In this document: positions 20,949 to 43,165 of the stretch, piece by piece | How positions within the stretch are numbered: position 1 is the first letter of the stretch | Layout of the letters: every line of letters begins with the position of its first letter | Source of the DNA: Nocardioides daeguensis | Lineage (GTDB): Bacteria > Actinomycetota > Actinomycetes > Propionibacteriales > Nocardioidaceae | Reading direction: 5' to 3' | Assembly: GCF_019192965.1 (NCBI RefSeq) | Contig: NZ_JAHTKU010000019.1 | Location: forward strand, 1 to 64,000 | Length of the DNA: 64,000 nt | The notes under the pieces: generated by a model | The model's input: the letters and a program-made list of their open reading frames with translations, nothing else | What the model was told of the DNA's origin: nothing | Databases searched by the model: none | Translations under genes and position numbers: made by a program

Positions 20949-20959
20949 AACCCCTGAGT

Positions 20960-21511
20960 CTAGGGAGTCGGGGAAGGCGCGGCGTCGGCGCCGTCCTCGT
21001 GAGACTGCGCACGCTCCTCGGCGCGCTCCTCGGCCCGCTCGTCGATGTCGGAGAGCAGGTTGCGCAGCTCGGAGCGCAGGAAGTCGCGGGTGGCGACCTC
21101 GCCGACCGCCATCCGCAGCGACGCCACCTCGCGGGCGAGGAACTCCATGTCGGCGTGCGCCCGGGCGTCGGCCTGACGGTCCTGCTCGGCGATCACGCGG
21201 TCGCGGGCCTCCTGACGGTTCTGCGCGAGCAGGATCAGCGGCGCGGCGTACGACGCCTGCAGGCTCAGCATCAGGGTCAAGAAGATGAACGGGTAGTCGT
21301 CGAAGCGCAGCTCGCCGGGAGCGAACAGGTTCCAGCACACCCAGCCGGCGACGAACAACGTCATGTAGATCAGGAAGGTCGCCGTGCCCATGAACCGGGC
21401 GAACTGCTCGGCGAAGACGCCGAACGTGTCGGCGTTGTAGGACGGCCGGCGCACCAGCTGGCGTCGCTCCTCGCGCGGCGTGTCCAGCCGCTCGCGACGC
21501 GCCTCGCTCAC
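20960..21511 (-). CDS. DUF1003 membrane protein
   Basis: A 183-aa inner-membrane protein. Two hydrophobic segments (about 43-65 and 75-97) are joined by FAPGELRFDDYPFIF and followed by a long charged helix that could be a coiled coil (about 100-165). It is the DUF1003 family, of unknown function and usually found beside the MgtE-N/CBS protein. GTGA overlap of four bases with the upstream gene shows translational coupling. Confidence 0.88.
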   Translation of the reverse strand: MSEARRERLDTPREERRQLVRRPSYNADTFGVFAEQFARFMGTATFLIYMTLFVAGWVCWNLFAPGELRFDDYPFIFLTLMLSLQASYAAPLILLAQNRQEARDRVIAEQDRQADARAHADMEFLAREVASLRMAVGEVATRDFLRSELRNLLSDIDERAEERAEERAQSHEDGADAAPSPTP

Positions 21512-22767
21512 GAGACGCCCCGCTCGCGCTCGCGGGCCTGCTCGCGCCAGTTGGCGGGGAGCATGTGGTCGAGCAGGTCGTCGACGGTGACGGCCCCGAT
21601 CAGCCGCCGGTCCTCGTCCACGACGGGCGCCGCCACCAGGTTGTAGGTCGCCAGGTGGGCGGCGACCTCGTCGATGCTCGCCTCGGGCCGCAGCCACTCC
21701 ATCGAGTCGTCGAGCGCGCCGGCGACCAGGGTCGACGGGGGCTCGCGCAACAGGCGCTGGATGTGGGCGACGCCGAGCAGCTTGCCGGTGGGGGTCTCCA
21801 ACGGCGGGCGGCACACGTAGACCAGCGCCGCAAGGGCCGGGGTGAGCTCGGGGTTGCGGACGTGGGCGAGCGCGTCGGCGATGGTGGCGTCCGGGCCGAG
21901 GATCACCGGCTCGGAGGTCATCATGGCGCCGGCCGTGTTCTCGACGTACGACATCAGGCGCCGCACGTCCTCGGCCTCCTCGGGCTCCATCAGCCCGAGC
22001 AGGATCTCCGCGGTCTCCGGCGGCAGGTCGCTGACCAGGTCGGCCGCGTCGTCGGGGGACATCTCCTCGAGGACGTCGGCCGCGCGCTCGGAGTCGAGGC
22101 CCTTGAGGATCTCGACCTGGTCGTCCTCGGGCAGCTCCTCGAGGACGTCGGCGAGCCGCTCGTCGTCGAGCGCCAGCGCGACCGCCGTACGACGCTCCGG
22201 CGGCAGGTCGTGCAGGATGCTTGCCGCGTCGGCGGGCCGCATCTCGTTGAGCGCGGCGACCAGGTGGGTGGCGCCCTGCCGGTCGTCGGCGCGGGTCAGG
22301 CCGGACACGTCGCGCCACTCGACGACGTGGGTCTGGCCGCGGCGGCGAAACCCCTTCGACGGCTCGCGCACCGCCACCCGGGACAGCACCCAGTCCCGGG
22401 TGCGGGCCGGCTCCATCGCGACGTCGTAGACGGTGCCGGTGACGCCGCTGTCCTTGATCGTCACGGTCCGGTCGAGCATCTGACCGATGACCAGGGTCTC
22501 GGTCGAGCGCTGCTCGAAGCGGCGCATGTTGAGCAGCCCGGTGGTGTAGACGTGGCCGCTGTCGATGTTGGTGACCCGGGTCATCGGCACGAAGATCCGG
22601 CGCCGACCGAACACCTCGGCGACCATCCCGAGGACGCGTGGCTGGGTCCCCTCGGTGCGAAGGGTCACGACCAGGTCGCGGACCTTCCCGACCTGGTCGC
22701 CCTGGGGGTCGAAGATCGGGAGCCCGACCAGCCTGGCCGCGAACACGCGGGTGGGGGTGGTGCTCAC
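21508..22767 (-). CDS. PRC-barrel, MgtE N-terminal and CBS-domain protein
   Basis: A 419-aa soluble protein made of a PRC-barrel-like part (about 1-85, with FDPQGDQVGKVRDLV), an MgtE N-terminal superhelical domain with repeated LPPE/LPEDD units (about 165-265), and paired CBS domains (about 270-410). The membrane channel of true MgtE magnesium transporters is absent, so it is a likely ligand sensor, not a transporter. TAGCGT stands 8 bases before GTG 22767. A TTG at 22776 is the alternative start. It is coupled to the DUF1003 gene. Confidence 0.85.
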   Translation of the reverse strand: MSTTPTRVFAARLVGLPIFDPQGDQVGKVRDLVVTLRTEGTQPRVLGMVAEVFGRRRIFVPMTRVTNIDSGHVYTTGLLNMRRFEQRSTETLVIGQMLDRTVTIKDSGVTGTVYDVAMEPARTRDWVLSRVAVREPSKGFRRRGQTHVVEWRDVSGLTRADDRQGATHLVAALNEMRPADAASILHDLPPERRTAVALALDDERLADVLEELPEDDQVEILKGLDSERAADVLEEMSPDDAADLVSDLPPETAEILLGLMEPEEAEDVRRLMSYVENTAGAMMTSEPVILGPDATIADALAHVRNPELTPALAALVYVCRPPLETPTGKLLGVAHIQRLLREPPSTLVAGALDDSMEWLRPEASIDEVAAHLATYNLVAAPVVDEDRRLIGAVTVDDLLDHMLPANWREQARERERGVS

Positions 22768-22794: not shown

Positions 22795-24345
22795 CTACTT
22801 CATGAACGTCCGCGGGCAGGTCGCGCCGGCGCAGTCCTTCGTCTCCAGCCACAGCTTGCGCAGCTCCTGGCGGATCGCCTTGTAGCGGGGGTCGCCGTAG
22901 AGGTTGTAGAGCTGGTACTGGTCGTTCTTCGTGTAGTAGAGCTCGCCGCGTCCCTTGTGGCCGCGGACGTAGGTCCACGGGCCCACGATGACCCCGGTGT
23001 AGAGCGGGTCGAGGCCGCCCTTGACCGGCCATCCGGAGATCGGCACGACGCGCCGGGTGGCGTCGCTGTCGAGCCACGGCATCACGTCGACGCCGTCGGC
23101 GTCGCGGTCGAGCGTCGCCCCGGCCAGCGCGGCGAAGGTCGGGGCCCAGTCGACGTTGGTGACCGGCGCGTGGCTCGTCGTACCGGCGGGAAGGCCCGGG
23201 CCGCGGATGAACATCGGGATGTTGATGGCGTCGCGGAAGTACCAGAGCTTGCCGTTGAGGTTGTGCTCGCCGACGTAGAAGCCGTTGTCCGAGGTCACCA
23301 CGACGTAGGTGTTGTCGAGCTGCCCGGTCTTCTCCAGGGTGTCGACGGTGCGCGCGATCGCGCGGTCCACGGCCTGGAGCGCCTCGACCCGTTGCTGGCG
23401 CTCCTCGCGCAGTGCGGCCCGGCGCTTCTTCGACCACTTCTGGCGCGCGGCGCGGATCAGCGCCTTGTCGCTGGGATCGGCCTCGAACATCTCCGGAGTG
23501 GTGTCGAGGTCGAGGTCCTTGAACGTGTCGCGGTCGCGCTTGTCGGGGACCGTGGTCGAGATGCCGTCGGGGTCGTCGTCCTCGTGCGGGCTGCCGTGGT
23601 GCGGCGCGACGTAGTTGACCCACAGGTACCAGGGCTGGTCGCTGTCGGCGTGGTCCTCGATGAGTTCGTTCGACTGGTCGCTGAGCAACGTCGTCGAGTA
23701 GGTGTCGTAGTCCTTGATCTTGCCGTCGACGAGCAGCTGCGGGTGCTCGAAGTCGTAGGTCGCGAAGTCGACCGTCGGGCGCCACACGCTCCAGCCGGGC
23801 GGCTCGTGGTGCACCTCCTGCTTGGTGTAGCCGTTGAGGTACTTGCCGACCATCATCGTGTCGTAGCCGGCTGCCTGGAGGCTGACCGGCATCGTGTCCT
23901 CGTCGTCGAACGACCGGTAGCCGCCGCCCTCGCCGCTGATCGTGACGGCGCCGTGGTTGCGGGAGTACTGGCCGGTGAGCAGCGAGGCCCGGGCCGGCAC
24001 GCAGATCGGCGTCGGCGCCAGCCCGTCGGCGATGGTGACCCCCTCGCCCGCGATCACCTCCTGCAGGTGCGGCATGAACTGCATGTCCTTCATGGCCGCG
24101 TCGTCCATGGTGATCATCAGCAGGTTCGGCTTCTCCGGCGACGCCACGGGCGCCGGCGTCGCGTCCGGGCCGAGTACGACGTCCTGCGGCGTCGGGGCCG
24201 CGACCGACGCCTGCTCGGCCGGCGGCCGGTACTTCACCACCGGCGGCCGCGGTCCGGCGTCGCCGCCACCACCGGAGCACGCGGCGAGCACGCTCGCGCT
24301 GAGGACGGCGGCAGTGGCCAGGCGGAGGCGGCCGGGGCGAGTCAC
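22795..24345 (-). CDS. Formylglycine-dependent sulfatase lipoprotein
   Basis: A surface-anchored type I sulfatase of 516 aa. The lipobox LAAC places the lipidated cysteine at about residue 23. The metal-site aspartates lie in TMDD (80-82), and the nucleophile precursor in CVPAR (C115 to R119), which must be converted to formylglycine. SDNGFYVGEH supplies further metal ligands near 290. GKYLNGY and the PPGW segment resemble N-acetylglucosamine-6-sulfatases, so a sulfated amino sugar is a plausible substrate. It overlaps its upstream activating-enzyme gene by 4 bases. Modification would have to precede export. Confidence 0.9.
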   Translation of the reverse strand: MTRPGRLRLATAAVLSASVLAACSGGGGDAGPRPPVVKYRPPAEQASVAAPTPQDVVLGPDATPAPVASPEKPNLLMITMDDAAMKDMQFMPHLQEVIAGEGVTIADGLAPTPICVPARASLLTGQYSRNHGAVTISGEGGGYRSFDDEDTMPVSLQAAGYDTMMVGKYLNGYTKQEVHHEPPGWSVWRPTVDFATYDFEHPQLLVDGKIKDYDTYSTTLLSDQSNELIEDHADSDQPWYLWVNYVAPHHGSPHEDDDPDGISTTVPDKRDRDTFKDLDLDTTPEMFEADPSDKALIRAARQKWSKKRRAALREERQQRVEALQAVDRAIARTVDTLEKTGQLDNTYVVVTSDNGFYVGEHNLNGKLWYFRDAINIPMFIRGPGLPAGTTSHAPVTNVDWAPTFAALAGATLDRDADGVDVMPWLDSDATRRVVPISGWPVKGGLDPLYTGVIVGPWTYVRGHKGRGELYYTKNDQYQLYNLYGDPRYKAIRQELRKLWLETKDCAGATCPRTFMK

Positions 24346-25379
24346 GCGTGGTTCTCCTTGTCAGTCGCGACGTCGGTCACGGCGTCCGTTGCACTGTCCG
24401 CAGCACAGCGGAAGCCGAGGTTCGAGGCCGTGGAGTCCGGCGGAGCCGCTGAGCGGGCAGCGACCCGGTAGCGGTTGCAGTACGAGTCGTGGCACAGGAA
24501 CGAGCCCCCGCGCATGACGCGGACCGTACCAGAGGCGGGACCGCGTGGATCGCGGGTCGCGCGGGCGTCGTACGCCGTCGGGTCGAACCAGTCCGAGCAC
24601 CACTCCCACACGTTGCCGACCATCTGGTGCAAGCCGTACCCGTTGGGTCGGTACGCCGTCACCGGGGCCGTCGTCGTCCAGCCGTCCGCGGCGGTGTTGG
24701 TGGCCGGGAAGCTGCCCTGGAAGATGTTGACCTGCCACTCCTCGCCGGTGTCCCCGGCCATCAGCTCGTCCCCCCACGGGTAGCGCTTCCCGGCGAGGCC
24801 GCCGCGGGCGGCGTACTCCCACTCGGCCTCGGTGGGCAGCCGGCGCCCGGCCCAGCGGGCGTAGGCGAGCGCGTCGTCGTGGGAGACGTGGACGACGGGA
24901 TGGTCGGCGCGGTCCTCGATCCCGGAGCGTGGGCCCTCGGGGTGCCGCCAGTCGGCGCCGCGGACCCCGACCCACCACGGGGTGGCGGGGGAGTAGCCGA
25001 GCACGTCGGCGACCTTCGCCGCGACATCGGTGTGGAACACCGCGGAGTAGCCCTCGGCCTCCGCGGTGGTCCGGTGCCCGGTCGCGTCGACGAAGGTCGC
25101 GAACGCCGCGTTGGTCACGGTCGTGGTGCCGAGCCGGAAGGCGGACACCTGCACCTCGTGGACCGGTCCTTCGCCGTCGCCGGCGTAGCCGTCGCCGAAG
25201 TGGTCGCCCAGCGCTGCCCGGCCGCCCGGGATCGCCGCCAGGAGGGTCGGGTCCGCTCCGGGGACGCCGCCCGACGGCGTGGTCGCGGGGCCGGCGAAGG
25301 GGGCGACGGTCAGGCCCACCGGGGTGGAGGGTCCCGCGGGGACGCAACACGGGCGCTGGCCCGACGGCTGGATGGACAT
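24342..25379 (-). CDS. Formylglycine-generating enzyme (FGE)
   Basis: A copper-dependent oxidase that converts the cysteine of CxPxR in sulfatases to formylglycine. The 345-aa protein closely follows the Streptomyces coelicolor FGE pattern: TEAEWEYAARGGLAG, GNVWEWCSDWF and GGSFLCHDSYC, with the active cysteine pair at about C296 and C301. There is no export signal, so it acts in the cytosol on the nascent sulfatase encoded by the overlapping next gene. The first 45 residues are a variable extension. It is divergent from the EEP gene at 25448. Confidence 0.93.
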   Translation of the reverse strand: MSIQPSGQRPCCVPAGPSTPVGLTVAPFAGPATTPSGGVPGADPTLLAAIPGGRAALGDHFGDGYAGDGEGPVHEVQVSAFRLGTTTVTNAAFATFVDATGHRTTAEAEGYSAVFHTDVAAKVADVLGYSPATPWWVGVRGADWRHPEGPRSGIEDRADHPVVHVSHDDALAYARWAGRRLPTEAEWEYAARGGLAGKRYPWGDELMAGDTGEEWQVNIFQGSFPATNTAADGWTTTAPVTAYRPNGYGLHQMVGNVWEWCSDWFDPTAYDARATRDPRGPASGTVRVMRGGSFLCHDSYCNRYRVAARSAAPPDSTASNLGFRCAADSATDAVTDVATDKENHA

Positions 25380-25434
25380 CGCCGACCAGTGTGCCGCAGC
25401 ATGCGAAGAGGCCCGGCTTCCTGGCTTCGTCGTT

Positions 25435-25440
25435 TACGAT
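25435..25440 (+). promoter_or_regulatory. -10 box for leaderless EEP gene mRNA
   Basis: TACGAT followed by 7 bases and the GTG at 25448, in the 68-base gap between divergent genes. Confidence 0.45.
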
Positions 25441-25447
25441 TCCTCAC

Positions 25448-26608
25448 GTGGAGGAACAGGGGAGGCGTGGTGCCCGCGCGGGCAAGCGGCTGGCGCCTGC
25501 CGTCTCGTCCGTCGACATGGTCGTCACGCTCGTGGCGGTCGTCGTGGTCCTGGCCGGGCTCAGCGTCTCGCTGATCTTCCCGCCGGACGAGCCGGACACC
25601 CCGGTGGCCCACGAGGGTCGCCGCGACACGTCCGGGACGACGTCGGCCGCGCTCGCCAACGACATCCTCGCCCCGACCGACACCGCGACGGGCGAGGCCG
25701 GCGGTGTCCTGGTGCCGCCCCTGGCGATGGAGGCCGAGCGGCAGTCCGCCCAGCTCGTCTGCCAGGCGCAGATCGGGACCACCCAGTTCACGGCGCTCTC
25801 CTACAACATCAAGTCCGCCCGGGCCGGCAGCCTCGACCGCCTGCTCGGCGTGATGGAGCGCTCCAAGGCGACGGTCCTGCTGCTGCAGGAGGTCGACTAC
25901 AAGCGGCGCAGCACCGGCAGCGTCGACCAGGCGGGCTGGTTCGCGGAGCGCCTGGGCGGTTGGGGCTCCGCGTTCGGTCGCAACGTCACCTTCGGCGACG
26001 GTCTCTACGGCACGGCGGTGGTGTCGAAGTACCCGATCCTCTCCTCGGAGAACACCCCGCTGCCCAACATCGGCCGCGCGCAGCCGCGGGGGCTGCTCCA
26101 CGTCGTGATCGACGTCGAGGGCGTCGAGGTCAGCATCTACAGCACGCACCTCGACAACACCTCGGCCAACATCCGCACCGCCCAGGCCAGCCGGATCTCC
26201 AGCATCCTGGCCGCGGACCCGCGCCCGAAGATCCTGGGCGGCGACATGAACACCTGGCCCAACTCCGGTCCGGAGCGGATCCTCAGCTCGCGGCTCAGCG
26301 ACAGCTACGTGGTCGCCGGAAGCGGCGGTGGCGCCACCCACCCCGCGAGCCGGCCGCGCACCCGCATCGACTACCTCCTGTACGGCGGCCCCGACCTCAC
26401 GGCCACCAGCTCCGTCGTCATGTCCGAGGGCGGCTCCGACCACCTCCCGGTGCGCGCCGACTTCACCCTCGGCGGGATCAAGACGGAGAAGTGCAGCGGT
26501 GACGCCAAGGCCCGCCCCCGCGACGCGGGCAAGGCGAAGGGCAAGCCCACGGGTCCGGCGTCCGGCCAGGCGTCGGGCATCGCGAGCAGCGACGCCGCGA
26601 CCGACTGA
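25448..26608 (+). CDS. Membrane-anchored endonuclease/exonuclease/phosphatase-fold protein
   Basis: A 386-aa protein with a short basic N-terminus, one membrane segment or uncleaved signal (about 22-42), then an EEP domain: ALSYNIKS, LLLQEVDYK (metal glutamate), LGGDMNTW and GGSDHLPV (catalytic aspartate-histidine). The last 40 residues are a lysine-, proline- and serine-rich tail. EEP enzymes cut phosphodiesters in nucleic acids, phosphoinositides or sphingomyelin; the substrate is not readable. The protein should act outside the membrane. GTG is chosen from the TACGAT box 7 bases upstream. Confidence 0.82.
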   Translation: MEEQGRRGARAGKRLAPAVSSVDMVVTLVAVVVVLAGLSVSLIFPPDEPDTPVAHEGRRDTSGTTSAALANDILAPTDTATGEAGGVLVPPLAMEAERQSAQLVCQAQIGTTQFTALSYNIKSARAGSLDRLLGVMERSKATVLLLQEVDYKRRSTGSVDQAGWFAERLGGWGSAFGRNVTFGDGLYGTAVVSKYPILSSENTPLPNIGRAQPRGLLHVVIDVEGVEVSIYSTHLDNTSANIRTAQASRISSILAADPRPKILGGDMNTWPNSGPERILSSRLSDSYVVAGSGGGATHPASRPRTRIDYLLYGGPDLTATSSVVMSEGGSDHLPVRADFTLGGIKTEKCSGDAKARPRDAGKAKGKPTGPASGQASGIASSDAATD

Positions 26609-26657
26609 ACTCGATCGCGAACGCCTCGTGGAGGCGGGTTTCGGCCTGGTCGGGTGG

Positions 26658-26663
26658 GTATAG
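26658..26663 (+). promoter_or_regulatory. Probable -10 box upstream of the PLD gene
   Basis: GGTATAGTG contains a good TATAGT-type -10 about 100 bases before the PLD-like gene, giving a leader of about 90 bases in the 153-base gap. I see no strong hairpin in it. Confidence 0.4.
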
Positions 26664-26761
26664 TGCCCGCGTCAAGGGTCGAGATTCGCGTGCATCCCTA
26701 GGAGGGCTGCCTGCTTCGGAACCCGGTCAGTTCTCGGGCGGAGTGGGTAGGAGTCAGGCAC

Positions 26762-28168
26762 GTGGGGAATGTGTGGGGCATGCGGGCGGCAGCGGCGCGG
26801 GTCCGGGTGGTGGCAGCGCTCGTCGCGCTCCTGCTCGCCGCCGGTCTGCTGGTCGCCGGTCAGGGCAGCCTGAGCGCGGCTGATGCGGCTCCGGCCACGG
26901 CGTCGAGCCAGGTGGCCGGTGCGGTGGCCGCGAAGCGCAAGCCGGACCCGACTGCCGTCGTCACGCCGGGGATCACCTTCAACCATCCGTTCAAGGCGGC
27001 GAAGCGCGGCGCGATCCAGCGCAAGATCATCAAGACGGTGCGCAACGTCGAGGCCGGCCAGACGATCCGGGTCATGACCTGGAACTTCGACTCGCCGCTG
27101 CTCGCCGGCAAGCTGATCGCGGCCCACAAGCGCGGCGTCTCGGTGCAGGTCATCATGGCGCGCGGGCTGGCCAAGGCGCAGGGCATGCACCGCTCCTACG
27201 GCGTGCTGCTCCGGGCGCTCAAGAAGGGCAACGCCGACCGTCCGCGCGAGCTGCGCAGCTGGATCCGGACCTGCACGGCCACCTGCCGCGGCAAGGGCGG
27301 CGCCATGCACAGCAAGATGATGCTGGTCAGCAGGTCGGGTGCCAGCAACTGGATCGTGATGCAGGGCTCGGGCAACCTCACCGGCGCTGCCGCCGTCCAG
27401 CAGTTCAACGACTGGACGACCACGACCGACAACCAGGCCCTCTACGACGGCTGGATGACGATGTGGGAGCAGGCGAAGAAGGACAAGAGCTTCCCGTCGC
27501 TGCAGTTCACCGTCCCCAGCACCACCATCCCGGGCGCCAACATCACCACGATGTTCGCCCCGCACCGCAGGGACACGGACCCGCCGCTGCGGGTGCTCAA
27601 CAAGGTGCAGTGCCACGGCGCGAGCAACACCGCCGACGGCCGCACCAAGGTCCGTGTCGCCAACGCCGTGTGGGGCGACGAGCGCGGCGCCCGGATCGCG
27701 CAGAAGGTGCGCGAGCTGCACTTCCAGGGCTGTGACGTGCGGGTCGTGTTCATGATGATGTCCGGCAAGATCCGCAGCATCCTCGCGCCCGTCCCGGCGA
27801 AGCAGATGGTCTACATCACCGGCGCGACGGCCAACAAGTTCAAGGACCGCTACGTCCACCTCAAGGGCCTCGCGGTCCAGGGCAACCTCGACGGCAACCC
27901 CGGTGCGAGCGCGGTGCTGTCCAGCAGCGAGAACTGGACCCAGCTCGGCTGGTTCTCCGACGAGCACGACATCATCTTCTGGGACGACGCCGCGATGGCG
28001 ACCAAGTACAGCAACTGGGTCGACATGATCTTCCGGACGGCGCCGCGCACGCTGGCCAACTACGTCAACTCGGCCGACCCCGACCCGGTGGTCCGGGTCC
28101 GGCCGGGCAGCGAGTACCTCAGCCCGAAGGACTACCCGTTCCACGAGCTCGAAGCCGAGCTGGACTGA
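26762..28168 (+). CDS. Secreted phospholipase D-like protein
   Basis: A 468-aa exported protein of the PLD superfamily. A long signal (hydrophobic about 18-36) is followed by two half-domains, the first with MHSKMM (His about 183), the second with VHLKG (His about 366). Both HxK motifs are intact, so catalysis through a phospho-histidine is possible. The lysine of each motif is followed by serine- or asparagine-rich strands as in the family. Substrate may be lipid or nucleic acid. GTG 26762 is preferred over ATG 26780 because AGGAG lies 8-9 bases upstream. Same direction as the flanking EEP gene and the sulfotransferase operon. Confidence 0.83.
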   Translation: MGNVWGMRAAAARVRVVAALVALLLAAGLLVAGQGSLSAADAAPATASSQVAGAVAAKRKPDPTAVVTPGITFNHPFKAAKRGAIQRKIIKTVRNVEAGQTIRVMTWNFDSPLLAGKLIAAHKRGVSVQVIMARGLAKAQGMHRSYGVLLRALKKGNADRPRELRSWIRTCTATCRGKGGAMHSKMMLVSRSGASNWIVMQGSGNLTGAAAVQQFNDWTTTTDNQALYDGWMTMWEQAKKDKSFPSLQFTVPSTTIPGANITTMFAPHRRDTDPPLRVLNKVQCHGASNTADGRTKVRVANAVWGDERGARIAQKVRELHFQGCDVRVVFMMMSGKIRSILAPVPAKQMVYITGATANKFKDRYVHLKGLAVQGNLDGNPGASAVLSSSENWTQLGWFSDEHDIIFWDDAAMATKYSNWVDMIFRTAPRTLANYVNSADPDPVVRVRPGSEYLSPKDYPFHELEAELD

Positions 28169-28264
28169 CGACACGGACCCGGCCCGGGTCGCTGCCGACC
28201 AGGCGGCGGCCCGGGCTTCGGGCGCCAGGACCCCGTCGACCACCACGAGACCGAGAGGGCGGAC

Positions 28265-29308
28265 ATGGCTCAGCGAGTGGTGCTGCACATCGGCACCATG
28301 AAGTCGGGAACCAGCTTCCTGCAGAACGTGCTCGGCGAGAACAAGGCGGTGCTGGCCGAGCGGGGCGTGCTGTTCCCCGGTCGCCGCTGGCGCCGTCAGG
28401 TCCGTGCCGTCAAGGAGCTGATCGGCCACGGTGGACCCGGGCAGCCCCCGATGCCGACCGACGGGATGTGGCAGGAGCTGGTCGCCGAGATCGAGGCCTG
28501 GCCCGGTACGGCGGTCGTCTCGATGGAGTACCTCGCCCCGCGTGACGAGAAGCAGATCCAACGCATCCGCAAGACCTTCCCGCACAGCCGGGTCGAGGCC
28601 GTGCTGACCTGCCGCGACCTGGCCCGCAACGTGCCCGCGATGTGGTTGGAGTCGGTGCAGAACGGCGGCGTCACGGGGTGGGACGACTACGTCGCCGCCC
28701 TCGGCGCCCGCAAGGACGCCACCGGCTCCGCGGCCCGCTTCTGGCGCCACCAGGACGTGCCGTCGATCGCCGCCCGCTGGGCCAAGGCGCTCGACAAGGG
28801 CGCGCTGACCCTGGTCACCGTGCCGCCCTCGGGAGCCCCCGGCGACCTGCTGTGGCGCCGCTTCGCGGAGGTGCTCGGCATCGACGCGCACGGCATCTCG
28901 CTCGACGTCCGCAGCAATCCCAGCATCGACCTGCCGAGCGCGCTGCTGCTGCTCGAGCTCAACCGTCGCTTCCGCCCCGACGGCAGGGGCGAGCTGCCGC
29001 CGTTCTACGACCGGCTGGTCAAGCACCAGCTGGCGAAGCGGGGGCTGTCGCTGCGCCAGGGCGGCGGCCAGCGCCTCGGCTACGACGACCCGTGGGCCGC
29101 TGCCCTGGGCGAGGAGCAGATGGCCCGGCTCCGCAAGGGCAAGCACCGGGTGGTCGGCGACCTCGACGAGCTCCGACCGCTCCCCGTGCGTGGGCTGCAG
29201 CCGGCCGACATCCCTGCCGAGGAGGTGCTGGCCGCGGCGCTCGACGCACTCCAGGTCGCCCTCACCAAGTGGAGCACCGCCGGACGTGGACGGGGGGAGC
29301 AGGAATGA
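28265..29308 (+). CDS. Sulfotransferase-family protein (first of two)
   Basis: A 347-aa cytosolic P-loop sulfotransferase-like protein. The 5'-phosphosulfate-binding loop is HIGTMKSGTSFLQ (about 7-19), and a CRDLARNVPAMW stretch near 118 is in the place of the 3'-phosphate-binding region. It would move sulfate from PAPS to a sugar or other hydroxyl. GAGGG lies a few bases before the ATG. The stop overlaps the next start (ATGA), so it heads an operon with a glycosyltransferase, LicD-methyltransferase fusion, coiled-coil protein and a second sulfotransferase. Confidence 0.82.
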   Translation: MAQRVVLHIGTMKSGTSFLQNVLGENKAVLAERGVLFPGRRWRRQVRAVKELIGHGGPGQPPMPTDGMWQELVAEIEAWPGTAVVSMEYLAPRDEKQIQRIRKTFPHSRVEAVLTCRDLARNVPAMWLESVQNGGVTGWDDYVAALGARKDATGSAARFWRHQDVPSIAARWAKALDKGALTLVTVPPSGAPGDLLWRRFAEVLGIDAHGISLDVRSNPSIDLPSALLLLELNRRFRPDGRGELPPFYDRLVKHQLAKRGLSLRQGGGQRLGYDDPWAAALGEEQMARLRKGKHRVVGDLDELRPLPVRGLQPADIPAEEVLAAALDALQVALTKWSTAGRGRGEQE

Positions 29309-30267
29309 AGTGGCGCGGACGTCGCGAGACGGATGCGGCGCCGGGGCCCGGCCCCGCCGCGACCGACCGGCCCTCGGGTGACGGCCTGCCGCGGGTGGCG
29401 GCGATCACCATGAGCCGCGACAGCGGGCCGGTGCTGCGCCGCTGGGTCGAGCACTACCAGCGCCAGCTCGGTGCCGACGACGTCTTCGTGATCGACGACC
29501 ACAGCGTCGACGGCTCGGCCGACGACCTGCCGTGCACCGTGCTGCGGCTGCCGTACCTCGACAAGTACCCCTTCGAGCCGTCCCGGATGGGCATCCTCAG
29601 CGGCCTGGCGAAGTCCCTCCTGTTCGCGTACGACGCCGTGCTGCTCGCCGACGCCGACGAGTTCGTCGTCGCCGATCCTGCCAAGCACGCCTCGCTGCGC
29701 CACTTCGCCGCGGCCCGCACCGGGACCGACGTCGCGGGCGTGCTCGGCTACAACGTCATCCACCGGGTCGGGGTCGAGCCCGAGCTGGACTTCGACGCCC
29801 CGTCGCTGCTGCGCCAGCGGGAGTTCGCCCGGTTCACGCCGCTGATGTGCAAGCCCGCCCTGAAGTGGGTCGACGCCGACTGGGCGCATGCCTCCCACGG
29901 CATCCGGCACCCCTTCGAGCCTGACCCCGAGCTGTTCATGTTCCACTTCAAGTTCGCCGACCTCGGACAGCTCGAGCTGCTCGCCGAGCACCGTCACCAG
30001 GCGGCCGTCGTCGAGGGCCGCGCGGTGAAGTCCAGCTGGAGCCGGCCGACCGACGAGATCGTCGAGGCGCTGCGCACTGCTGCCGCGCAGGTCGAGCAGG
30101 CCGTGGCGCAGGGCGAGCTGGGCAGGTTCCGACCGGGCCCGAAGCGGATCCAGTCGATCGTGCAGAACGAGGGCGACCTGTGGCGGGCCACGGGCGCCGG
30201 CCAGCACCACGCCCTGGTGAGGCCGCCGTACGTCCGGATCCCCGACGAGCTGCGCGACCTGGTGTGA
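29305..30267 (+). CDS. Glycosyltransferase-2-like protein
   Basis: A 320-aa cytosolic protein with a nucleotide-sugar transferase fold of the GT2/GT92 kind. The N-terminal strand VAAITMSRDSGPVLRRWVEHY leads to VFVIDDHSVDGS (about 58) and a DxD-type metal site in LLADADEF (about 115). An HASHGIRH segment and a FHFKFAD region lie in the C-terminal half. Such proteins add single sugars to surface glycans or proteins. ATG overlaps the sulfotransferase stop by four bases. The acceptor is unknown. Confidence 0.78.
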   Translation: MKWRGRRETDAAPGPGPAATDRPSGDGLPRVAAITMSRDSGPVLRRWVEHYQRQLGADDVFVIDDHSVDGSADDLPCTVLRLPYLDKYPFEPSRMGILSGLAKSLLFAYDAVLLADADEFVVADPAKHASLRHFAAARTGTDVAGVLGYNVIHRVGVEPELDFDAPSLLRQREFARFTPLMCKPALKWVDADWAHASHGIRHPFEPDPELFMFHFKFADLGQLELLAEHRHQAAVVEGRAVKSSWSRPTDEIVEALRTAAAQVEQAVAQGELGRFRPGPKRIQSIVQNEGDLWRATGAGQHHALVRPPYVRIPDELRDLV

Positions 30268-30295
30268 GGGGCGAGTGGACATGGAAGGGGCGGAG

Positions 30296-31828
30296 ATGAC
30301 CGATCTGGCTGTCGCCACCGTCGACGCCGAGGGCCTGGTCCTGCGCGGCGTCGCGGAGGATCGCGCGCTCGACGTGCTCTTCGACGAGCGTCGGATCTGG
30401 TCGTTCTGGTCGGTGCGCGACACCGAGCCGAGCCCCAGCGGCGCGGAGGGCGAGCGCCGGATCGCCTGGCCCGAGCGGATGCTGCGCTTCCTCGACGGCC
30501 CGACCCGGCTGCGGGTGCGCGACCACGTCGCGGGCACGGTGGTGCACGACGAGGAGACCACCTTCGGCACCGGCTCCGAGCGGATCGCGTTCGTCAACAA
30601 GCAGGGTCTGCCGATCGCACTCGACAAGTCCGGCCGGTTCCACCCCGAGTTCTCGGTGCGCAGCGGCGACCAGCTCGAGCCGCTGCTCGAGGCGATGCAC
30701 CTGGTCATCGCGATCCTCGAGGAGGAGGGGATCGCGGCGTTCCCGGCGTACGGCACCCTGCTCGGCGCCGTGCGTGAGCAGGACTTCCTCGGCCACGACT
30801 CCGACGCCGACCTCGGCTACGTCTCGCGCCACCTCGCTCCGGTCGACGTCGTGCGGGAGTCCTTCCGGCTCCAGCGGGCGCTGGTCGAGCGGGGGATGGC
30901 GACCTTCCGCTACAGCGGGGCGGCCTTCCGCATCGATGTCGAGGAGAGCGACGGGTCCGTGCGCGGCCTCGACCTGTTCGGTGGCTTCTTCCCCGGTGAC
31001 GGCAAGCTCTACCTGATGGGCGAGGTGGGCGTGGAGTTCCGCGAGGAGTGGATCTTCCCGCTGTCCACGGTGACCCTCGCCGGCCACGAGTTCCCGGCGC
31101 CGGCCGAGCCCGAGCGGCTGCTCGAGGCGATGTACGGGCCGCACTGGAAGGTCCCGGACCCCGCGTTCAAGTTCGAGACCTCTGCGGAGGTCAAGATGCG
31201 GCTCGACAACTGGTTCCGCGGTCTCTCGCCGTACCGCCGCGACTGGCAGACCGACCCGGCCCATCGCAAGGGGGACGTCAACGCGCCGGCCTCCGACCTC
31301 GCGCTGGGCCTCGCGGCCGACATCCCCGAGGGAACCCACGTGCTCGACGTCGGTGCCGGGCGGGGGAGCGACGCCCTGCACCTGGCCCGCCAGGGCTTCC
31401 GCACCACGGCCTACGACTACGTCCCGCTCACCTTGCGCAAGGCCGCCCGGGTCGCCGGGCGCGAGGGCGCGGCGCTCGAGGTCCGGATGATCAGCCTCAC
31501 CCAGCTCCGCTCGGTGCTCGGCGAGGGCGCCCGGGTCGCGCGCCAGGCCGGGCCGCGGGCGATGCTCGCGCGGCACGTGCTCGACGCGACGACGGAGCGC
31601 GGTCGGGAGGGACTGCTGCGCTTCGCAGCGATGACCCTGCGCGGCGGCGGCCGGCTGCACGCCGAGTTCGCCACGGGCGAGGGCGAGGCCGGCCCGGGTT
31701 TGTATCCTGTCTCACTCGACGGGGTCGTGGCGTCGATCGAACGGTTCGAAGGATCGGTCGTGTCGACGGACGTCGAGCCCGGTGGCCCGGACCGCGCCGG
31801 GCGGGCCGTCGTGGTCGCCCAGTGGTGA
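30296..31828 (+). CDS. LicD-like transferase fused to SAM methyltransferase
   Basis: A 510-aa two-domain protein. After a beta-rich N-terminal part (1-105), residues about 110-310 read as LicD/nucleotidyltransferase fold: FPAYGTLLGAVREQDFLGHDSDADLGY holds the glycine-rich loop and the metal aspartates. LicD proteins attach phosphorylated groups such as phosphocholine to glycans. Residues about 325-500 have a Rossmann methyltransferase motif, VLDVGAGRGSDALHLA. The ATG at 30296 follows AAGGGG at a good distance; GTG 30275 is the alternative. The fusion suggests one protein transfers and methylates a sugar substituent. Confidence 0.75.
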   Translation: MTDLAVATVDAEGLVLRGVAEDRALDVLFDERRIWSFWSVRDTEPSPSGAEGERRIAWPERMLRFLDGPTRLRVRDHVAGTVVHDEETTFGTGSERIAFVNKQGLPIALDKSGRFHPEFSVRSGDQLEPLLEAMHLVIAILEEEGIAAFPAYGTLLGAVREQDFLGHDSDADLGYVSRHLAPVDVVRESFRLQRALVERGMATFRYSGAAFRIDVEESDGSVRGLDLFGGFFPGDGKLYLMGEVGVEFREEWIFPLSTVTLAGHEFPAPAEPERLLEAMYGPHWKVPDPAFKFETSAEVKMRLDNWFRGLSPYRRDWQTDPAHRKGDVNAPASDLALGLAADIPEGTHVLDVGAGRGSDALHLARQGFRTTAYDYVPLTLRKAARVAGREGAALEVRMISLTQLRSVLGEGARVARQAGPRAMLARHVLDATTERGREGLLRFAAMTLRGGGRLHAEFATGEGEAGPGLYPVSLDGVVASIERFEGSVVSTDVEPGGPDRAGRAVVVAQW

Positions 31829-31864
31829 GTGCCCGTGGTGATGTCTATGCGTGAAGAAGAGAAG

Positions 31865-32074
31865 ATGAGCCAGAATCGCTGGAACCTGTACGCCACCGTC
31901 CGCTCCCAGCGGCTGCGGATCGAGGCGCTCGAGACCGAGGTCGCCGAGCTGCAGCGCCACTACGTGCGGATGGCGGAGCTCGTCGACGTCGTCCAGGAGC
32001 TGCTGATCCCCGTCACCCAGCGCGACGAGGCCAGGATCGCCGAGGCGATCGAGGCGTTCGACAAGAGCCTGTGA
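31865..32074 (+). CDS. Short coiled-coil protein (DUF6752-like)
   Basis: A 69-aa protein, nearly all one charged helix with heptad-like spacing (RSQRLRIEALETEVAELQRHYVRMAELVDVV), no signal or membrane segment. Similar short proteins accompany sulfotransferase and glycosyltransferase genes in Nocardioides; the DUF number is from memory. It may be a scaffold. The purine-rich GAAGAAGAGAAG just before the ATG at 31865 supports this start; ATG 31847 is possible. It overlaps the next gene (GTGA). Confidence 0.6.
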   Translation: MSQNRWNLYATVRSQRLRIEALETEVAELQRHYVRMAELVDVVQELLIPVTQRDEARIAEAIEAFDKSL

Positions 32075-33174
32075 GCTCGCGGTCACCCGTCATGGCACGA
32101 CGCGTCTTCGTCCACATCGGGCTGCCCAAGACGGCCACCACCTATCTCCAGACCATCCTCTGGTCCTCCCGGGACCGGCTGCTGGAGGACGGCGTGCTGC
32201 TCCCGGGGCTGGGTCGCTTCGACCACCTGTGGACCAGCCGGATCGTCCGTGAGGATCCGCGGCTGCCGAAGGCGTCCGAGGAGCACCGCACCGCCTGGGC
32301 GCGGCTCCAGGCCGAGATCGCGGCCCACGACGGCGACGCGCTGATCACCCACGAGTTCTTCGCCGCCGCCAGCGCCGACCAGGCCAAGCGGATGGCCGAG
32401 GCACTCGCGCCCGCCGAGGTGCACGTCGTGGTCACCGCGCGCGACCTGCTCGGGCTGTTCACCGCCAGCTGGCAGGAGAGCCTGAAGAACCGCGGCACCG
32501 CCTCGATGGCCGACTACTCCCGCGAGGTGTCAGAGGACCCCCGCGACGTGTGGAACTGGCGCACGCTGGACCTCCACCTGGTGCTCCAGCGCTGGTCCGC
32601 GGCCGTCGCCCACGAGCGGATCCACGTGCTCCCGCTCGACACCTCCGCCCCGCGCGAGGAGATCTGGCACCGGTTCGCCGGCCTGCTGGGTCTGCGCGCC
32701 GACGCCTATGACCTGAGCCAGTCCTTCCCCAACGAGTCGATGGGCGTGGTCGAGGCCGAGGTGCTGCGCCGGGTCAACGAGCACCTGGTCGCCCGCAAGT
32801 CGCTCGGCGCCGCCCGCGACCGCGGCATGTTCATCCGCACCTTCCTCGCCGACGAGCGCCTGGTCCCGCGCCGGGGCGAGAAGTTCTGGCCGCAGCCCGA
32901 CCGGATCGAGGAGTGCCGGCAGCGCAGCGAAGCAACCCTCGCCTACCTGCGCGCCCATCCGGTCGACGTGGTGGGCGACCTGAGCCGGCTCGAGATCCCC
33001 GCCGAGCTGCCGGCCCGTCGTACGCCGGACACGGTGACCGAGGCCGAGGTGGCCGAGGCCGCCACCGACCTGGTCGCCATGATGCTCGCCGACGTCCGCG
33101 AGCTCCGGGTCGCGCCCCGCGTCGAGCCGACGTCCGGCAAGCGCGGCCTGCTCGGCGCGTTGCGCCGTCGCTGA
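32071..33174 (+). CDS. Sulfotransferase-family protein (second of two)
   Basis: A 367-aa cytosolic protein with the PAPS loop HIGLPKTATTYLQ (about 15-27) and a TARDLLGLFTASWQESLKNRG stretch in the region of the 3'-phosphate site. It resembles the first sulfotransferase only in these motifs, so the two probably act on different positions or acceptors. The GTG start overlaps the stop of the coiled-coil gene. It is the last gene of the operon; the following 239 bases are AT-rich and hold no clear terminator. Confidence 0.8.
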   Translation: MSSRSPVMARRVFVHIGLPKTATTYLQTILWSSRDRLLEDGVLLPGLGRFDHLWTSRIVREDPRLPKASEEHRTAWARLQAEIAAHDGDALITHEFFAAASADQAKRMAEALAPAEVHVVVTARDLLGLFTASWQESLKNRGTASMADYSREVSEDPRDVWNWRTLDLHLVLQRWSAAVAHERIHVLPLDTSAPREEIWHRFAGLLGLRADAYDLSQSFPNESMGVVEAEVLRRVNEHLVARKSLGAARDRGMFIRTFLADERLVPRRGEKFWPQPDRIEECRQRSEATLAYLRAHPVDVVGDLSRLEIPAELPARRTPDTVTEAEVAEAATDLVAMMLADVRELRVAPRVEPTSGKRGLLGALRRR

Positions 33175-33413
33175 CGCGGCGGCACGCCCGAACCGCTCAG
33201 CTGTGCCTCCTGCCGGCCGAAGGTCCGCGGGAAATCGCGCGCATTCTTCCTTTCTGGGACCGGTCTATTTCCGAACAAATTACACCGGTGTGATTTATCG
33301 AATTACATCTTTGTAGTTTTTCGCGCCGTATTGCCATGGTGAAGTTGTTACTGATGTGATTCCTGAGGAAATTGTTCGCTCGGTGCATTTCGCGCCGTGA
33401 ATCGGGAGGTCCC
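33175..33413 (+). promoter_or_regulatory. AT-rich leader with palindrome, upstream of an EEP gene
   Basis: This 239-base gap is far more AT-rich than its surroundings from about 33240 on. It holds a palindrome (AAATTACACC at 33277-33286, GGTGTGATTT at 33287-33296, one mismatch) directly upstream of AATTACATCTTTGTAGTT (33301-33318), whose TGTAGT could be a -10 box. The sequence TTTCGCGCCGT occurs twice (from 33319 and 33388). GGGAGG precedes the next ATG. Confidence 0.5.
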
Positions 33414-34775
33414 ATGCGCACGCAGAGCTCGCTTCGATGGCTTCGCGCCCTACCGGCGACCGTCGTGGCGCTGTCGGTCCTCGCGACCCTCCTGGTGCTC
33501 GCCGCGGCCGGTACGGGCGGCGGCCGCGCCGACCTGGAGCGCACCGCCGCGGCGGCCGACCCCGGCGCGGCCGGCGGGGTCCGCCTGGTTCAGGCCAACA
33601 TCAAGTCCGGCATGTCGCTCGAGCGCACCGCGGCCGACCTCGGCCAGGTGTTCGCCCAGCTCCCGGACTTCATCACCTTCAACGAGGTGTCCAGCCGGCC
33701 CGACGCGCTGCTCGCGCCCCCGGGCTACGCCATCCAGCGCACGCCCGGCACCTACACCGGCGCCACCGCCGTCGTGTGGGACGCGACGCGCTGGACCAAG
33801 CTCGCGGCCGGCACCTACAACATCAGCAACGTGTGGGGGAAGTCGCGCAAGCAGAAGGTGCACTGGGGCGTGCGGTACGCCAACTGGGCTACGCTGCGCA
33901 ACGCGGAGGGCCGCACCGTCTCGGTGGTGTCCGTGCACTTCGCGCCGATCACCAAGTACACGCCCGGCATCACCCTGCCGTCGTACCAACGGCTCTCAGG
34001 GCTCGCCCAGAGCCTCTCGGCGAGCGGCCCGGTGCTGATGGCCGGCGACGTCAACGTGAACTTCCGCAGCGGCGCCTACCCGCGCAACGAGCTCGCCGCC
34101 ATGGGCCTGGTCAACGTCTTCGACCTGTTCGGAGTCGCCCCGGCCACCCACGACAGCGGCGCGGTCATCGACCACGCCTACCTGTACCAGGGCGACCCGC
34201 TGCTGCCGGTCACCAACCTGACCACCGCCGAGCTCTACTCCGACCACAAGATGCTGACGGTCGACCTCGGCAACGTGGGCCCGCGCGCCGGTGCGTTCGC
34301 GCCGGGCTGGAAGTCCAACCAGGGCGACGCCAACGCGACCATGCGCCTGGTGCGCGACGCTATCGACCAGGCACCGCCGGGCTCTGCCCTCCACCTCGCG
34401 ACCAAGCAGCTCGGCGGCAAGGGCGTCTACCGCGCGATCGTGAACGCCCGCGCCCGCGGCGTCGAGATCCAGATCATCACCGGCCACCGCAAGGTCACCG
34501 ACCTGGACCGCAAGCTCGCGAAGCTGCTCGGCACCAAGAAGAAGCACAAGTCCTGGGCCAAGCGGAAGTCGAGCTGGAGCCAGTACGGCCTGCCCAAGGC
34601 GCTCGTGCTCGCCAGCACCTCGGGCGGTACCCGCGCCGTGCGGATCGACTTCAACCGGGCCTGGGTCGGCAAGGAGCAGAGGCGCGCCGGCTCGACCGCC
34701 CAGATCCGCTCCGACCAGTTCGGCTACGACGAGATGTTCCTGCGGTTCTTCGCGGCGGTGGGCCGCACCCTCTGA
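33414..34775 (+). CDS. Secreted EEP-domain protein with PLD-like C-terminal half-domain
   Basis: A 453-aa exported protein. A signal (hydrophobic about 14-33) is followed by an EEP domain: VQANIKSG, FNEVSSR (metal glutamate), MAGDVNVNF and YSDHKM (aspartate-histidine). From about residue 305 the sequence switches to a PLD-like half-domain (MRLVRDAIDQAP to GVEIQIITGHRK, then VRIDFNRAW), parallel to the PLD protein at 26762 but without an HxK motif. The second half therefore may bind rather than cut. GGGAGG precedes the ATG. It is the third exported phosphodiesterase-type gene around the sulfation operon. Confidence 0.78.
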   Translation: MRTQSSLRWLRALPATVVALSVLATLLVLAAAGTGGGRADLERTAAAADPGAAGGVRLVQANIKSGMSLERTAADLGQVFAQLPDFITFNEVSSRPDALLAPPGYAIQRTPGTYTGATAVVWDATRWTKLAAGTYNISNVWGKSRKQKVHWGVRYANWATLRNAEGRTVSVVSVHFAPITKYTPGITLPSYQRLSGLAQSLSASGPVLMAGDVNVNFRSGAYPRNELAAMGLVNVFDLFGVAPATHDSGAVIDHAYLYQGDPLLPVTNLTTAELYSDHKMLTVDLGNVGPRAGAFAPGWKSNQGDANATMRLVRDAIDQAPPGSALHLATKQLGGKGVYRAIVNARARGVEIQIITGHRKVTDLDRKLAKLLGTKKKHKSWAKRKSSWSQYGLPKALVLASTSGGTRAVRIDFNRAWVGKEQRRAGSTAQIRSDQFGYDEMFLRFFAAVGRTL

Positions 34776-35182: not shown

Positions 35183-35265
35183 GGTCTCGCCCCCCGTTCG
35201 GAGGGTCCTGGCGTCGCTACCCGCGGGTATTGTGCGGTCCGGCAACACCACTGAAAGGGAACGTG

Positions 35266-36462
35266 ATGACCCGGCTTTGTCAGACCGAAGGCCTCACCGA
35301 GGACCAGTCCGAGATCCTGAAGGCCGTGCGGGTCTTCGTGGACGAGCAGATCATCCCGGTCGCCCAGGAGCTCGAGCACTCCGACACCTACCCGCAGGAG
35401 ATCGTCGACGGGCTCAAGGAGCTCGGCGTCTTCGGCCTGACCATCCCCGAGGAGTTCGGCGGTCTGGGCGAGTCCCTGCTGACCTACGCGCTGGTGGTCG
35501 AGGAGATCGCCCGCGGCTGGATGAGCGTGTCGGGTGTCATCAACACCCACTTCATCGTGGCCTACCTGCTCATGCAGCACGGCACCGAGGAGCAGAAGGC
35601 CAAGTACCTGCCCCGGATGGCGACCGGCGAGGTCCGCGGCGCGTTCTCGATGTCCGAGCCGGGTCTCGGCTCCGACGTGTCGGCCGTCTCCACCAAGGCC
35701 ACCAAGCAGGCCGACGGCTCGTACTCCATCACCGGCCAGAAGATGTGGCTGACCAACGGCGCCAGCTCCACGCTGGTCGCGCTGCTCGTCAAGACCGACG
35801 AGGGTGCCGAGTCGGTCTACAAGAACATGACCACCTTCCTCGTCGAGAAGGAGGCCGGGTTCGGCGAGACCGCCCAGGGCGTCACCGTCCCCGGCAAGAT
35901 CGACAAGATGGGCTACAAGGGCGTCGAGACGACCGAGCTCATCCTCGAGGGTCACCAGATCGGGGCGGACCAGATCCTCGGCGGCGAGCCCGGCAAGGGC
36001 TTCTTCCAGATGATGGACGGCGTCGAGGTCGGCCGCGTCAACGTCGCCGCCCGCGCCTGCGGCCTGGCCTGGCGCGGCTTCGAGCTCGGTGTCGCCTACG
36101 CCCAGCAGCGCAAGACCTTCGGCAAGGTCATCGCCGAGCACCAGGCGGTCCTGTTCCGGATCGCGGAGATGGCGACCAAGGTCGAGACCGCGCACAACAT
36201 GATGGTCCGCGCGGCCCGCCTCAAGGACACCGGCAAGCGGATGGATGTCGAGGCCGGCATGGCCAAGATGGTCGCCTCCGAGTACGCCAACGAGGTCGTC
36301 GAGGACTCCTTCCGGATCCACGGTGGCTACGGCTACTCCAAGGAGTACGAGATCGAGCGCCTGATGCGCGAGGTCAAGTTCATGCTCATCGGCGAGGGCA
36401 CCTCCGACATCCAGAAGATGATCATCGGCCGCCAGCTCCTCAAGGAGTACAAGCTCAAGTGA
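35266..36462 (+). CDS. Acyl-CoA dehydrogenase, methylsuccinyl-CoA dehydrogenase-like
   Basis: A 398-aa FAD-dependent acyl-CoA dehydrogenase. FSMSEPGLGSD (about 128-138) and GQKMWLTNG are the flavin and substrate signatures, and a RIHGGYGYSKEYEIER stretch near 348 closes the active site; the catalytic base position IGEGTSDIQ holds glutamate near 381. It is coupled by GTGA overlap to a gene with mesaconyl-CoA hydratase features, so oxidation of methylsuccinyl-CoA in the ethylmalonyl-CoA pathway is a good inference, though a general branched-acyl-CoA role is possible. GAAAGGGA precedes the ATG. Confidence 0.85.
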   Translation: MTRLCQTEGLTEDQSEILKAVRVFVDEQIIPVAQELEHSDTYPQEIVDGLKELGVFGLTIPEEFGGLGESLLTYALVVEEIARGWMSVSGVINTHFIVAYLLMQHGTEEQKAKYLPRMATGEVRGAFSMSEPGLGSDVSAVSTKATKQADGSYSITGQKMWLTNGASSTLVALLVKTDEGAESVYKNMTTFLVEKEAGFGETAQGVTVPGKIDKMGYKGVETTELILEGHQIGADQILGGEPGKGFFQMMDGVEVGRVNVAARACGLAWRGFELGVAYAQQRKTFGKVIAEHQAVLFRIAEMATKVETAHNMMVRAARLKDTGKRMDVEAGMAKMVASEYANEVVEDSFRIHGGYGYSKEYEIERLMREVKFMLIGEGTSDIQKMIIGRQLLKEYKLK

Positions 36463-39683: not shown

Positions 39684-39686
39684 CCG

Positions 39687-41159: not shown

Positions 41160-41165
41160 TCACCG

Positions 41166-43163: not shown

Positions 43164-43165
43164 GC

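Follow-up and report, generated by a model that had tools for sequence, protein, structure and literature searches.

What purpose is served by the genes of sulfate and phosphate chemistry that lie side by side between positions 22795 and 34775 of a 64,000-nucleotide stretch of the Nocardioides daeguensis genome (the window)? We find it somewhat probable that they form a lineage-specific island for the decoration of an envelope glycan, with cytoplasmic enzymes that write the marks and exported ones that erase them. An earlier note, made from the sequence alone, had named ten genes, and all ten were found where it had placed them when reading frames and families were checked, although both sulfotransferases and both halves of one further protein score below the Pfam cut-offs. 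The minus strand encodes a formylglycine-generating enzyme (FGE) followed by a type I sulfatase. The plus strand encodes, in this order, an EEP-family phosphodiesterase, a PLD-family protein, the sulfotransferase-like ST1, a family 2 glycosyltransferase (GT2), a LicD phosphotransferase joined to a methyltransferase domain (LicD-MT), a small DUF6752 protein, a second sulfotransferase (ST2) and an EEP-like protein with a PLD-like C-terminal part (EEP-PLD). The gene content, its recurrence, synteny, sulfatase clade, N-termini and predicted folds described below were observed directly, as was the presence of genes for PAPS supply, for a near-TagD protein and for galactan synthesis. The host genome comprises 4.66 Mb in 41 contigs.

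The island is real, conserved and modular, and it looks built for envelope decoration. Of 149 genomes sampled from the family, 86 contain LicD-MT (E 1e-20). The nearest named LicD loci are those of Pimelobacter simplex 3E (91% identity), Nocardioides sp. SLBN-35, N. albidus, N. sp. LHD-245 and N. carbamazepini, and the window belongs to the Nocardioides/Pimelobacter group. According to Pfam and synteny, the island is usually found between genes for an Mrp-type ATPase, a DUF1003 protein and an MgtE-like protein (19767..22767 in the window, minus strand) and an acyl-CoA dehydrogenase gene (35263..36462, plus strand). The MgtE-like border gene (21508-22767, minus strand) matches the MgtE_N, CBS and PRC-barrel domains of Pfam but not the MgtE membrane domain.

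Two sets of loci, which share genomes (e.g. L114 and L036), were compared: a first set of 60 stretches of up to 20 kb, and 80 named loci that are the best 80 of 343 confirmed places and therefore biased to close relatives. Genes in the relatives were called from codon-position GC by a custom script, so that starts and short genes are approximate, and family labels came from clusters and profiles built in the analysis, with Pfam run on single members. In 16 of the 80 named loci the MgtE-like gene, the dehydrogenase gene or a LicD of more than 400 aa was not in view. Between the borders of the other 64 we found, as lower bounds since an acyl-CoA dehydrogenase can fall inside an island, LicD in 63, DUF6752 in 63, a sulfotransferase in 55, any EEP in 49 and PLD in 43, and more rarely GT2 (24), an AT3-SGNH acyltransferase (14), a LicC-like gene (10), the sulfatase (6) and FGE (3). 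The cassette is modular, and its content varies strongly among species. That variation would be expected of a hotspot that gathers unrelated envelope genes between the MgtE-like gene and the dehydrogenase gene. We judge this very unlikely, as the same few families recur, LicD and DUF6752 keep their adjacency, and LicD, DUF6752, sulfotransferase and PLD genes recur together at another site. The suggestion of the earlier note that the families belong together is supported: LicD-MT, DUF6752, sulfotransferase, PLD and EEP recur across Nocardioides at one site, FGE being a local addition.

The LicD-MT protein (30281..31828, plus strand) combines a putative beta-rich domain (the extra N-terminal part, about residues 1-125), a LicD phosphotransferase domain (PF04991, 8.4e-08, 33.0 bits against a cut-off of 22.6) and a C-terminal S-adenosylmethionine (SAM) methyltransferase domain. 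Residues D173, D175, D177 and D231, which we take to be the nucleotidyltransferase-type catalytic aspartates, are invariant in 29 of 29 sequences, and both the LicD profile and Foldseek match FKRP, solved with cytidine diphosphate (CDP)-ribitol and cytidine monophosphate (CMP). The predicted model (predicted local distance difference test, pLDDT, 91.5) resembles FKRP in its LicD part and SAM methyltransferases in its C-terminal part. The latter reaches 25 bits with the best Pfam model, below the cut-off of 27, and 2.2e-13 in a profile match to the PDB. For this model the VIA list of 50 rows holds only matches to the methyltransferase domain, which fills it; FKRP was seen in Foldseek. The upstream GT2 (29305..30267, plus strand) matches PF13704 at 1.8e-11.

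The small coiled-coil protein of the earlier note proved to be a member of DUF6752 (31865..32074, plus strand; Pfam 9.2e-22), a near-constant neighbour of LicD. Its gene lies directly 3' of 86 of the 87 LicD genes longer than 400 aa in the 80 named loci, and of 56/70 in the first set (window included), where 67/70 have it within three genes. A sulfotransferase lies within three genes of LicD in 74/87 and 57/70 cases, respectively. We dropped the view that DUF6752 is an invariable direct follower of LicD, given the 56/70 and the different gene order, DUF6752-ST-LicD (ST, sulfotransferase), in the loci with GlfT2 described below. DUF6752 is likely to be a partner subunit of LicD.

Neither sulfotransferase reaches the Pfam sulfotransferase cut-off: ST1 (28265..29308, plus strand) scores 14.1 bits against 27, and ST2 (32071..33174, plus strand, starting at GTG 32071 or ATG 32092) has no match. 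Both are predicted to be cytoplasmic and were recognised by their P-loops, KSGTS and KTATT, and ST2 also by the fold of its predicted model (pLDDT 91.3); residues H15, G17, K20, T23 and R124 are invariant in 22 sequences. With this model Foldseek returned a single match at E <=0.001, a bacterial sulfotransferase with a TM score of 0.41. Re-ranking with VIA-align gave human heparan sulfate NDST1 as the best match (Z 15.7, root-mean-square deviation 3.7, 234 residues), and ranks 1-15 (Z 13.5-15.7) are heparan-sulfate enzymes together with the bacterial sulfotransferase, whereas small-molecule types reach Z of about 9-10. Judged by its predicted model, ST2 is nearest to glycan rather than small-molecule sulfotransferases. 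Searched against PDB sequences, the sulfotransferase profile returned a single short match, m4D2, which was taken for chance. The host genome encodes a supply of 3'-phosphoadenosine 5'-phosphosulfate (PAPS), with APS kinase and CysD/CysN on contig C25. The APS kinase there (L181:9229-11160), close to CysD/CysN, is flanked by an N-terminal part on one side and a low-molecular-weight phosphatase-like domain on the other.

The EEP protein (25517..26608, plus strand), membrane-anchored or exported, matches PF03372 at 4.9e-24 (85.7 bits against a cut-off of 24.5) and keeps the catalytic N, E, H, GDxN and SDH residues. The exported PLD protein (26762..28168, plus strand; PF13091, 3.1e-15) carries two HxK motifs, as do all members of its cluster (33/33), which is present in 31 of 61 loci (60 fetched and the window). 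In the exported EEP-PLD protein (33414..34775, plus strand) both halves fall under the Pfam cut-offs (EEP 18.2 against 24.5, PLD 18.4 against 27), and the EEP residues are retained despite the low score. None of the 6 members of this cluster has the HxK pair typical of PLD enzymes, for which reason the PLD-like half is probably inactive, and two active hydrolases in one protein were rejected. Besides single EEP proteins, the islands hold composite EEP architectures in three clusters: six proteins pair EEP with a PLD-like part, ten pair it with an alkaline-phosphatase-superfamily phosphodiesterase, and ten join it to RCC1 repeats. When two members each of the latter two clusters were run against Pfam, both domains were above the cut-off in one member, and the EEP domain was below it or missing in the other. 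The RCC1-EEP cluster of ten island proteins includes L052:5706-7670, in which RCC1 repeats are fused to an EEP domain, and a member in L069 whose EEP part was not detected at 1e-5. Outside the island, another exported protein (55547-56392, plus strand) shows a weak EEP match of 23.4 bits and no Pfam family at 1e-5.

The proposed division between cytoplasmic writers and exported erasers is in line with the N-termini. In a crude hydrophobicity test an N-terminal hydrophobic segment was found in 0 of 251 LicD, DUF6752, sulfotransferase and glycosyltransferase proteins, compared to 74 of 91 EEP- and PLD-type proteins. The EEP-phosphodiesterase cluster has such a segment in just 3/10, perhaps from errors in start calling. 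In the sulfatase cluster it was found in 1/4 and a lipobox in 2/4, the window sulfatase having been called too short in that test.

In its full reading frame the sulfatase (22795..24345, minus strand) has the lipobox LAAC close to its N-terminus, as expected of an exported lipoprotein. It matches PF00884 at 2.9e-43 (148.7 bits), reads CVPAR in the CxPxR formylglycine motif, and has N-acetylglucosamine-6-sulfatase as its best solved-structure match (5g2v, 4.1e-34). The FGE (24342..25379, minus strand; PF03781, 5.9e-82) aligns over nearly its full length with solved FGEs (6muj/2q17, about 1e-118). Its sequence LCHDSYCNRYR aligns at CHDSYC with both, and these cysteines are presumably the catalytic pair. 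FGE comes first, and the two genes overlap by four bases (GTGA).

In a tree of 27 sulfatases, with island sequences gathered from island loci and the others from sulfatase search matches plus L128, the ten island members form a single clade (100/100) apart from the other 17. Nine further loci have a sulfatase of this clade inside the LicD island, and in six of them (L098, L145, L163, L056, L060 and L062) the stretch contains no FGE. FGE is linked to an island sulfatase only in the window, L097, L099 and L100, as searched with an FGE profile built from one sequence and a sulfatase profile built from four. In the 149 family genomes, which were those scanned for members of the clade outside islands, the three closest homologs of the sulfatase (56-58%) were located 3.3-3.5 kb beyond LicD in G111, G131 and G146, with FGE elsewhere in the genome, and the next best matches, at 49%, were in no island. 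This single clade and the few loci with FGE linkage make the sulfatase an old member of an island subset and FGE probably a recent local addition; the FGE-sulfatase pair was rejected as an essential part of the system, FGE being absent even from the L098 stretch. On whether the sulfatase/FGE pair and the sulfotransferase operon occur independently, a point that the earlier note had singled out, the outcome is divided: sulfatases of the clade recur in nine other LicD islands, but the FGE-sulfatase pair was also found apart from LicD in G029, G081 and G076.

For the proposed decoration island we infer the activities, the donor, the acceptor and the logic of writing and erasing as follows. The LicD domain, with DUF6752 as its likely subunit, would transfer a phospho-alcohol from a CDP-activated donor to a sugar in the cytoplasm, where ST1 and ST2 would add sulfate from PAPS, GT2 would contribute a sugar and the methyltransferase domain may act in capping. 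Once the product has been exported, its phosphate and sulfate marks would be trimmed or recycled outside the cell by the EEP and PLD enzymes and by the lipoprotein sulfatase that FGE activates. The most likely acceptor would be cell-wall galactofuranan made by a GlfT2/UGM/ABC-export cluster. That one and the same glycan would be both sulfated and phosphorylated is plausible. The pathway for a surface glycan or lipid suggested by the earlier note is partly supported, by the recurrence of the families and by writers without, and most hydrolases with, export-type N-termini, while its methylated, sulfated product stays a prediction.

The choice of galactofuranan as likeliest acceptor is due to a second genomic site. 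In five loci (L078, L079, L082, L086 and L087) LicD, DUF6752, sulfotransferase and PLD genes adjoin GlfT2, as confirmed by Pfam on all five. UGM closes the set in four of them and is not in the L087 stretch, and a galactan-export-like permease in L079, the one locus tested, scores 41 bits, below its cut-off. GlfT2 was found in all 20 genomes tested, at 40-50 kb from LicD in 16 of 17 same-genus genomes besides the host. The same neighbourhood bears on another explanation, namely that the pathway yields a glycolipid, either secreted or in the membrane, or a small sulfated, methylated phospho-metabolite, instead of a wall polymer. Relatives of LicD do include a diacylglycerol cholinephosphotransferase (NCBIfam Mf1, 2e-09, 37.9 bits against a cut-off of 225), and family searches recognised neither a polymerase nor a flippase among the ten island proteins. 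We regard this as improbable, given that the module adjoins GlfT2 in the five loci and that the ST2 model lies closer to glycan sulfotransferases. The envelope-decoration reading can be given its most specific form as a sulfated phospho-galactan with its own remodelling: cell-wall galactofuranan of the Nocardioidaceae bearing a LicD-added phospho-alcohol and sulfate, written inside and erased outside by dedicated phosphodiesterases and a sulfatase, with DUF6752 as LicD subunit. In all these particulars the proposal is tentative, and we would not expect it to hold in full.

CDP-glycerol would be the likeliest donor of LicD, since the host genome encodes a near-TagD protein (162.9 bits against a cut-off of 165.4) and has no matches to the LicC-like or glycerol-1-phosphate (G1P)-dehydrogenase-like queries. 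Among 30 related genomes, chosen as LicD holders or controls, a TagD-like gene (at least 67% identity) is present in five and abuts a LicD in all five. This includes the second LicD-MT of the host (L091:8803-11026, contig C33), which is followed by DUF6752 and whose start is overlapped by the gene of a TagD-like cytidylyltransferase. For the LicC-like gene (16 members) the position varies: immediately upstream of LicD in 9 of the 60 loci, divergent from the DUF6752-ST-LicD set in six, and further off in one. In those six a G1P-dehydrogenase-like gene accompanies it, the member tested scoring 266 bits, below the cut-off of 413. A LicC-like query from L036 found nothing in the host genome and matched in 4/4 control genomes (three at 73% or more, one at 34%); the classical LicA, LicB and LicC were not queried. 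In L078:3972-7993, GlfT2, a G1P-dehydrogenase-like gene and a nucleotidyltransferase stand in a row, which suggests an archaeal-type glycerol-1-phosphate donor for galactan decoration.

Several observations weigh against this account. Three of the 70 LicD genes lack DUF6752 within three genes. In the host, GlfT2, UGM and exporter-like genes lie on another contig (G000:C7) and not beside the island, GlfT2 of G127 is 1.9 Mb away from LicD, and the distance of 40-50 kb between GlfT2 and LicD elsewhere may reflect shared synteny only. With nothing in the host genome matching the LicC-like and G1P-dehydrogenase-like queries, the donor pathway is unlinked; no glycan gene was recognised beside the host's near-TagD gene, and a weaker TagD-like gene (G096, 43%) is on a contig without a LicD match. 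The LicD-DUF6752 pairs of L091, L203 and L204 stand in stretches free of sulfotransferase, PLD and EEP genes, and the phosphate and sulfate marks can therefore be separable. Finally, LicC-type islands at the MgtE site carry neither EEP nor PLD (10/10), so that LicD does not always come with phosphodiesterases, and these may act on another substrate.

This last observation, together with the fact that the EEP and PLD families include nucleases, would also fit EEP, PLD and sulfatase being secreted nucleases, phosphodiesterases and sulfatases with which the cell acquires phosphate and sulfate, their genes sharing a variable site with an unrelated LicD-sulfotransferase operon. FGE-sulfatase pairs do exist elsewhere without LicD, and two more distant sulfatases lie just beyond island borders, in L128 (31%) and G127 (38%), as if the neighbourhood draws them. 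The distribution of the enzymes speaks for a closer bond to LicD. In 18 related genomes, chosen as LicD holders or controls, 35 of 143 EEP matches are within 12 kb of LicD, compared to 0.8 expected by length, with at least one in every genome; owing to this choice and relatedness, a binomial value for the excess should not be read as a probability. PLD is again found beside LicD at the second site in 5/5 GlfT2 loci, and the ten island sulfatases form one clade separate from the 17 other sequences. We therefore regard scavenging as a serious but rather unlikely explanation, and retain envelope decoration as the preferred one.

The genes from 28265 to 33174 likely form one operon. The earlier note had described their junctions as overlapping, which is true of two of the four: an ATGA at 29305 joins the stop of ST1 to the start of GT2, and a GTGA at 32071 joins DUF6752 to ST2, provided that ST2 starts at the GTG. 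At the remaining two junctions the genes are separated by 13 and 36 bases. The EEP-PLD gene is preceded by a gap of 239 bases that contains an AT-rich stretch. A promoter scan found none, and a scan for terminator-like sequences found one, with 2.0 expected. Further along the window (38196-43954, plus strand), two tandem periplasmic-binding proteins (PF13458) are followed by a branched-chain amino-acid-type permease and an ATPase, which by Pfam constitute an ABC transporter whose binding protein is duplicated.

Every part of the island is a known enzyme type. LicD resembles the LicD/FKRP phosphotransferases (LicD of lic1-type loci and mammalian FKRP) in its Pfam domain, its conserved aspartates and its profile and fold match to FKRP, but differs from them by the putative N-terminal beta-rich domain, the C-terminal methyltransferase, the DUF6752 neighbour and the adjoining sulfotransferases. 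LicA, LicB and LicC of lic1-type loci have choline-related roles; unlike those loci, the ten island genes include no choline gene. The actinobacterial galactan clusters (GlfT2, UGM, Wzm/Wzt) are comparable in having LicD, DUF6752, sulfotransferase and PLD genes beside GlfT2 in the five loci, although island and galactan cluster are on different contigs in the host. GlpQ belongs to another family than the EEP and PLD phosphodiesterases. Its role in teichoic-acid turnover is similar in that the cell cleaves glycerol phosphate off its own wall polymer with a phosphodiesterase (PMC7086022), and differs by involving no sulfate. The wps-1 cluster of Actinoplanes missouriensis, another actinomycete, is described as having two sulfotransferases of different families, a methyltransferase and a sulfated polysaccharide that is likewise only predicted (PMC13390465). 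It differs by a Wzx/Wzy pathway and a GH26 enzyme, and LicD and a phosphodiesterase are unmentioned in the main text (PMC13390465).

In keeping with the earlier note, which knew of no described system with this set, we found no description of the whole gene set in the titles and abstracts searched, a scope outside which most subscription journals and all preprints fall. The same literature held no mention of DUF6752 and nothing that combined LicD, sulfotransferase and gene cluster. Sulfated polysaccharides have been called uncommon in bacteria outside the cyanobacteria, and in actinomycetes only predicted, according to the 2026 Actinoplanes paper (PMC13390465); a sulfated capsule is reported for the marine bacterium Cobetia (PMC11766843). 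The island offers, in a soil genus, a locus at which the sulfation and phospho-decoration of an actinobacterial envelope glycan can be tested. It also gives LicD enzymes a near-constant neighbour in DUF6752, and the substrates of the exported phosphodiesterases may be guessed from the writers that adjoin them.

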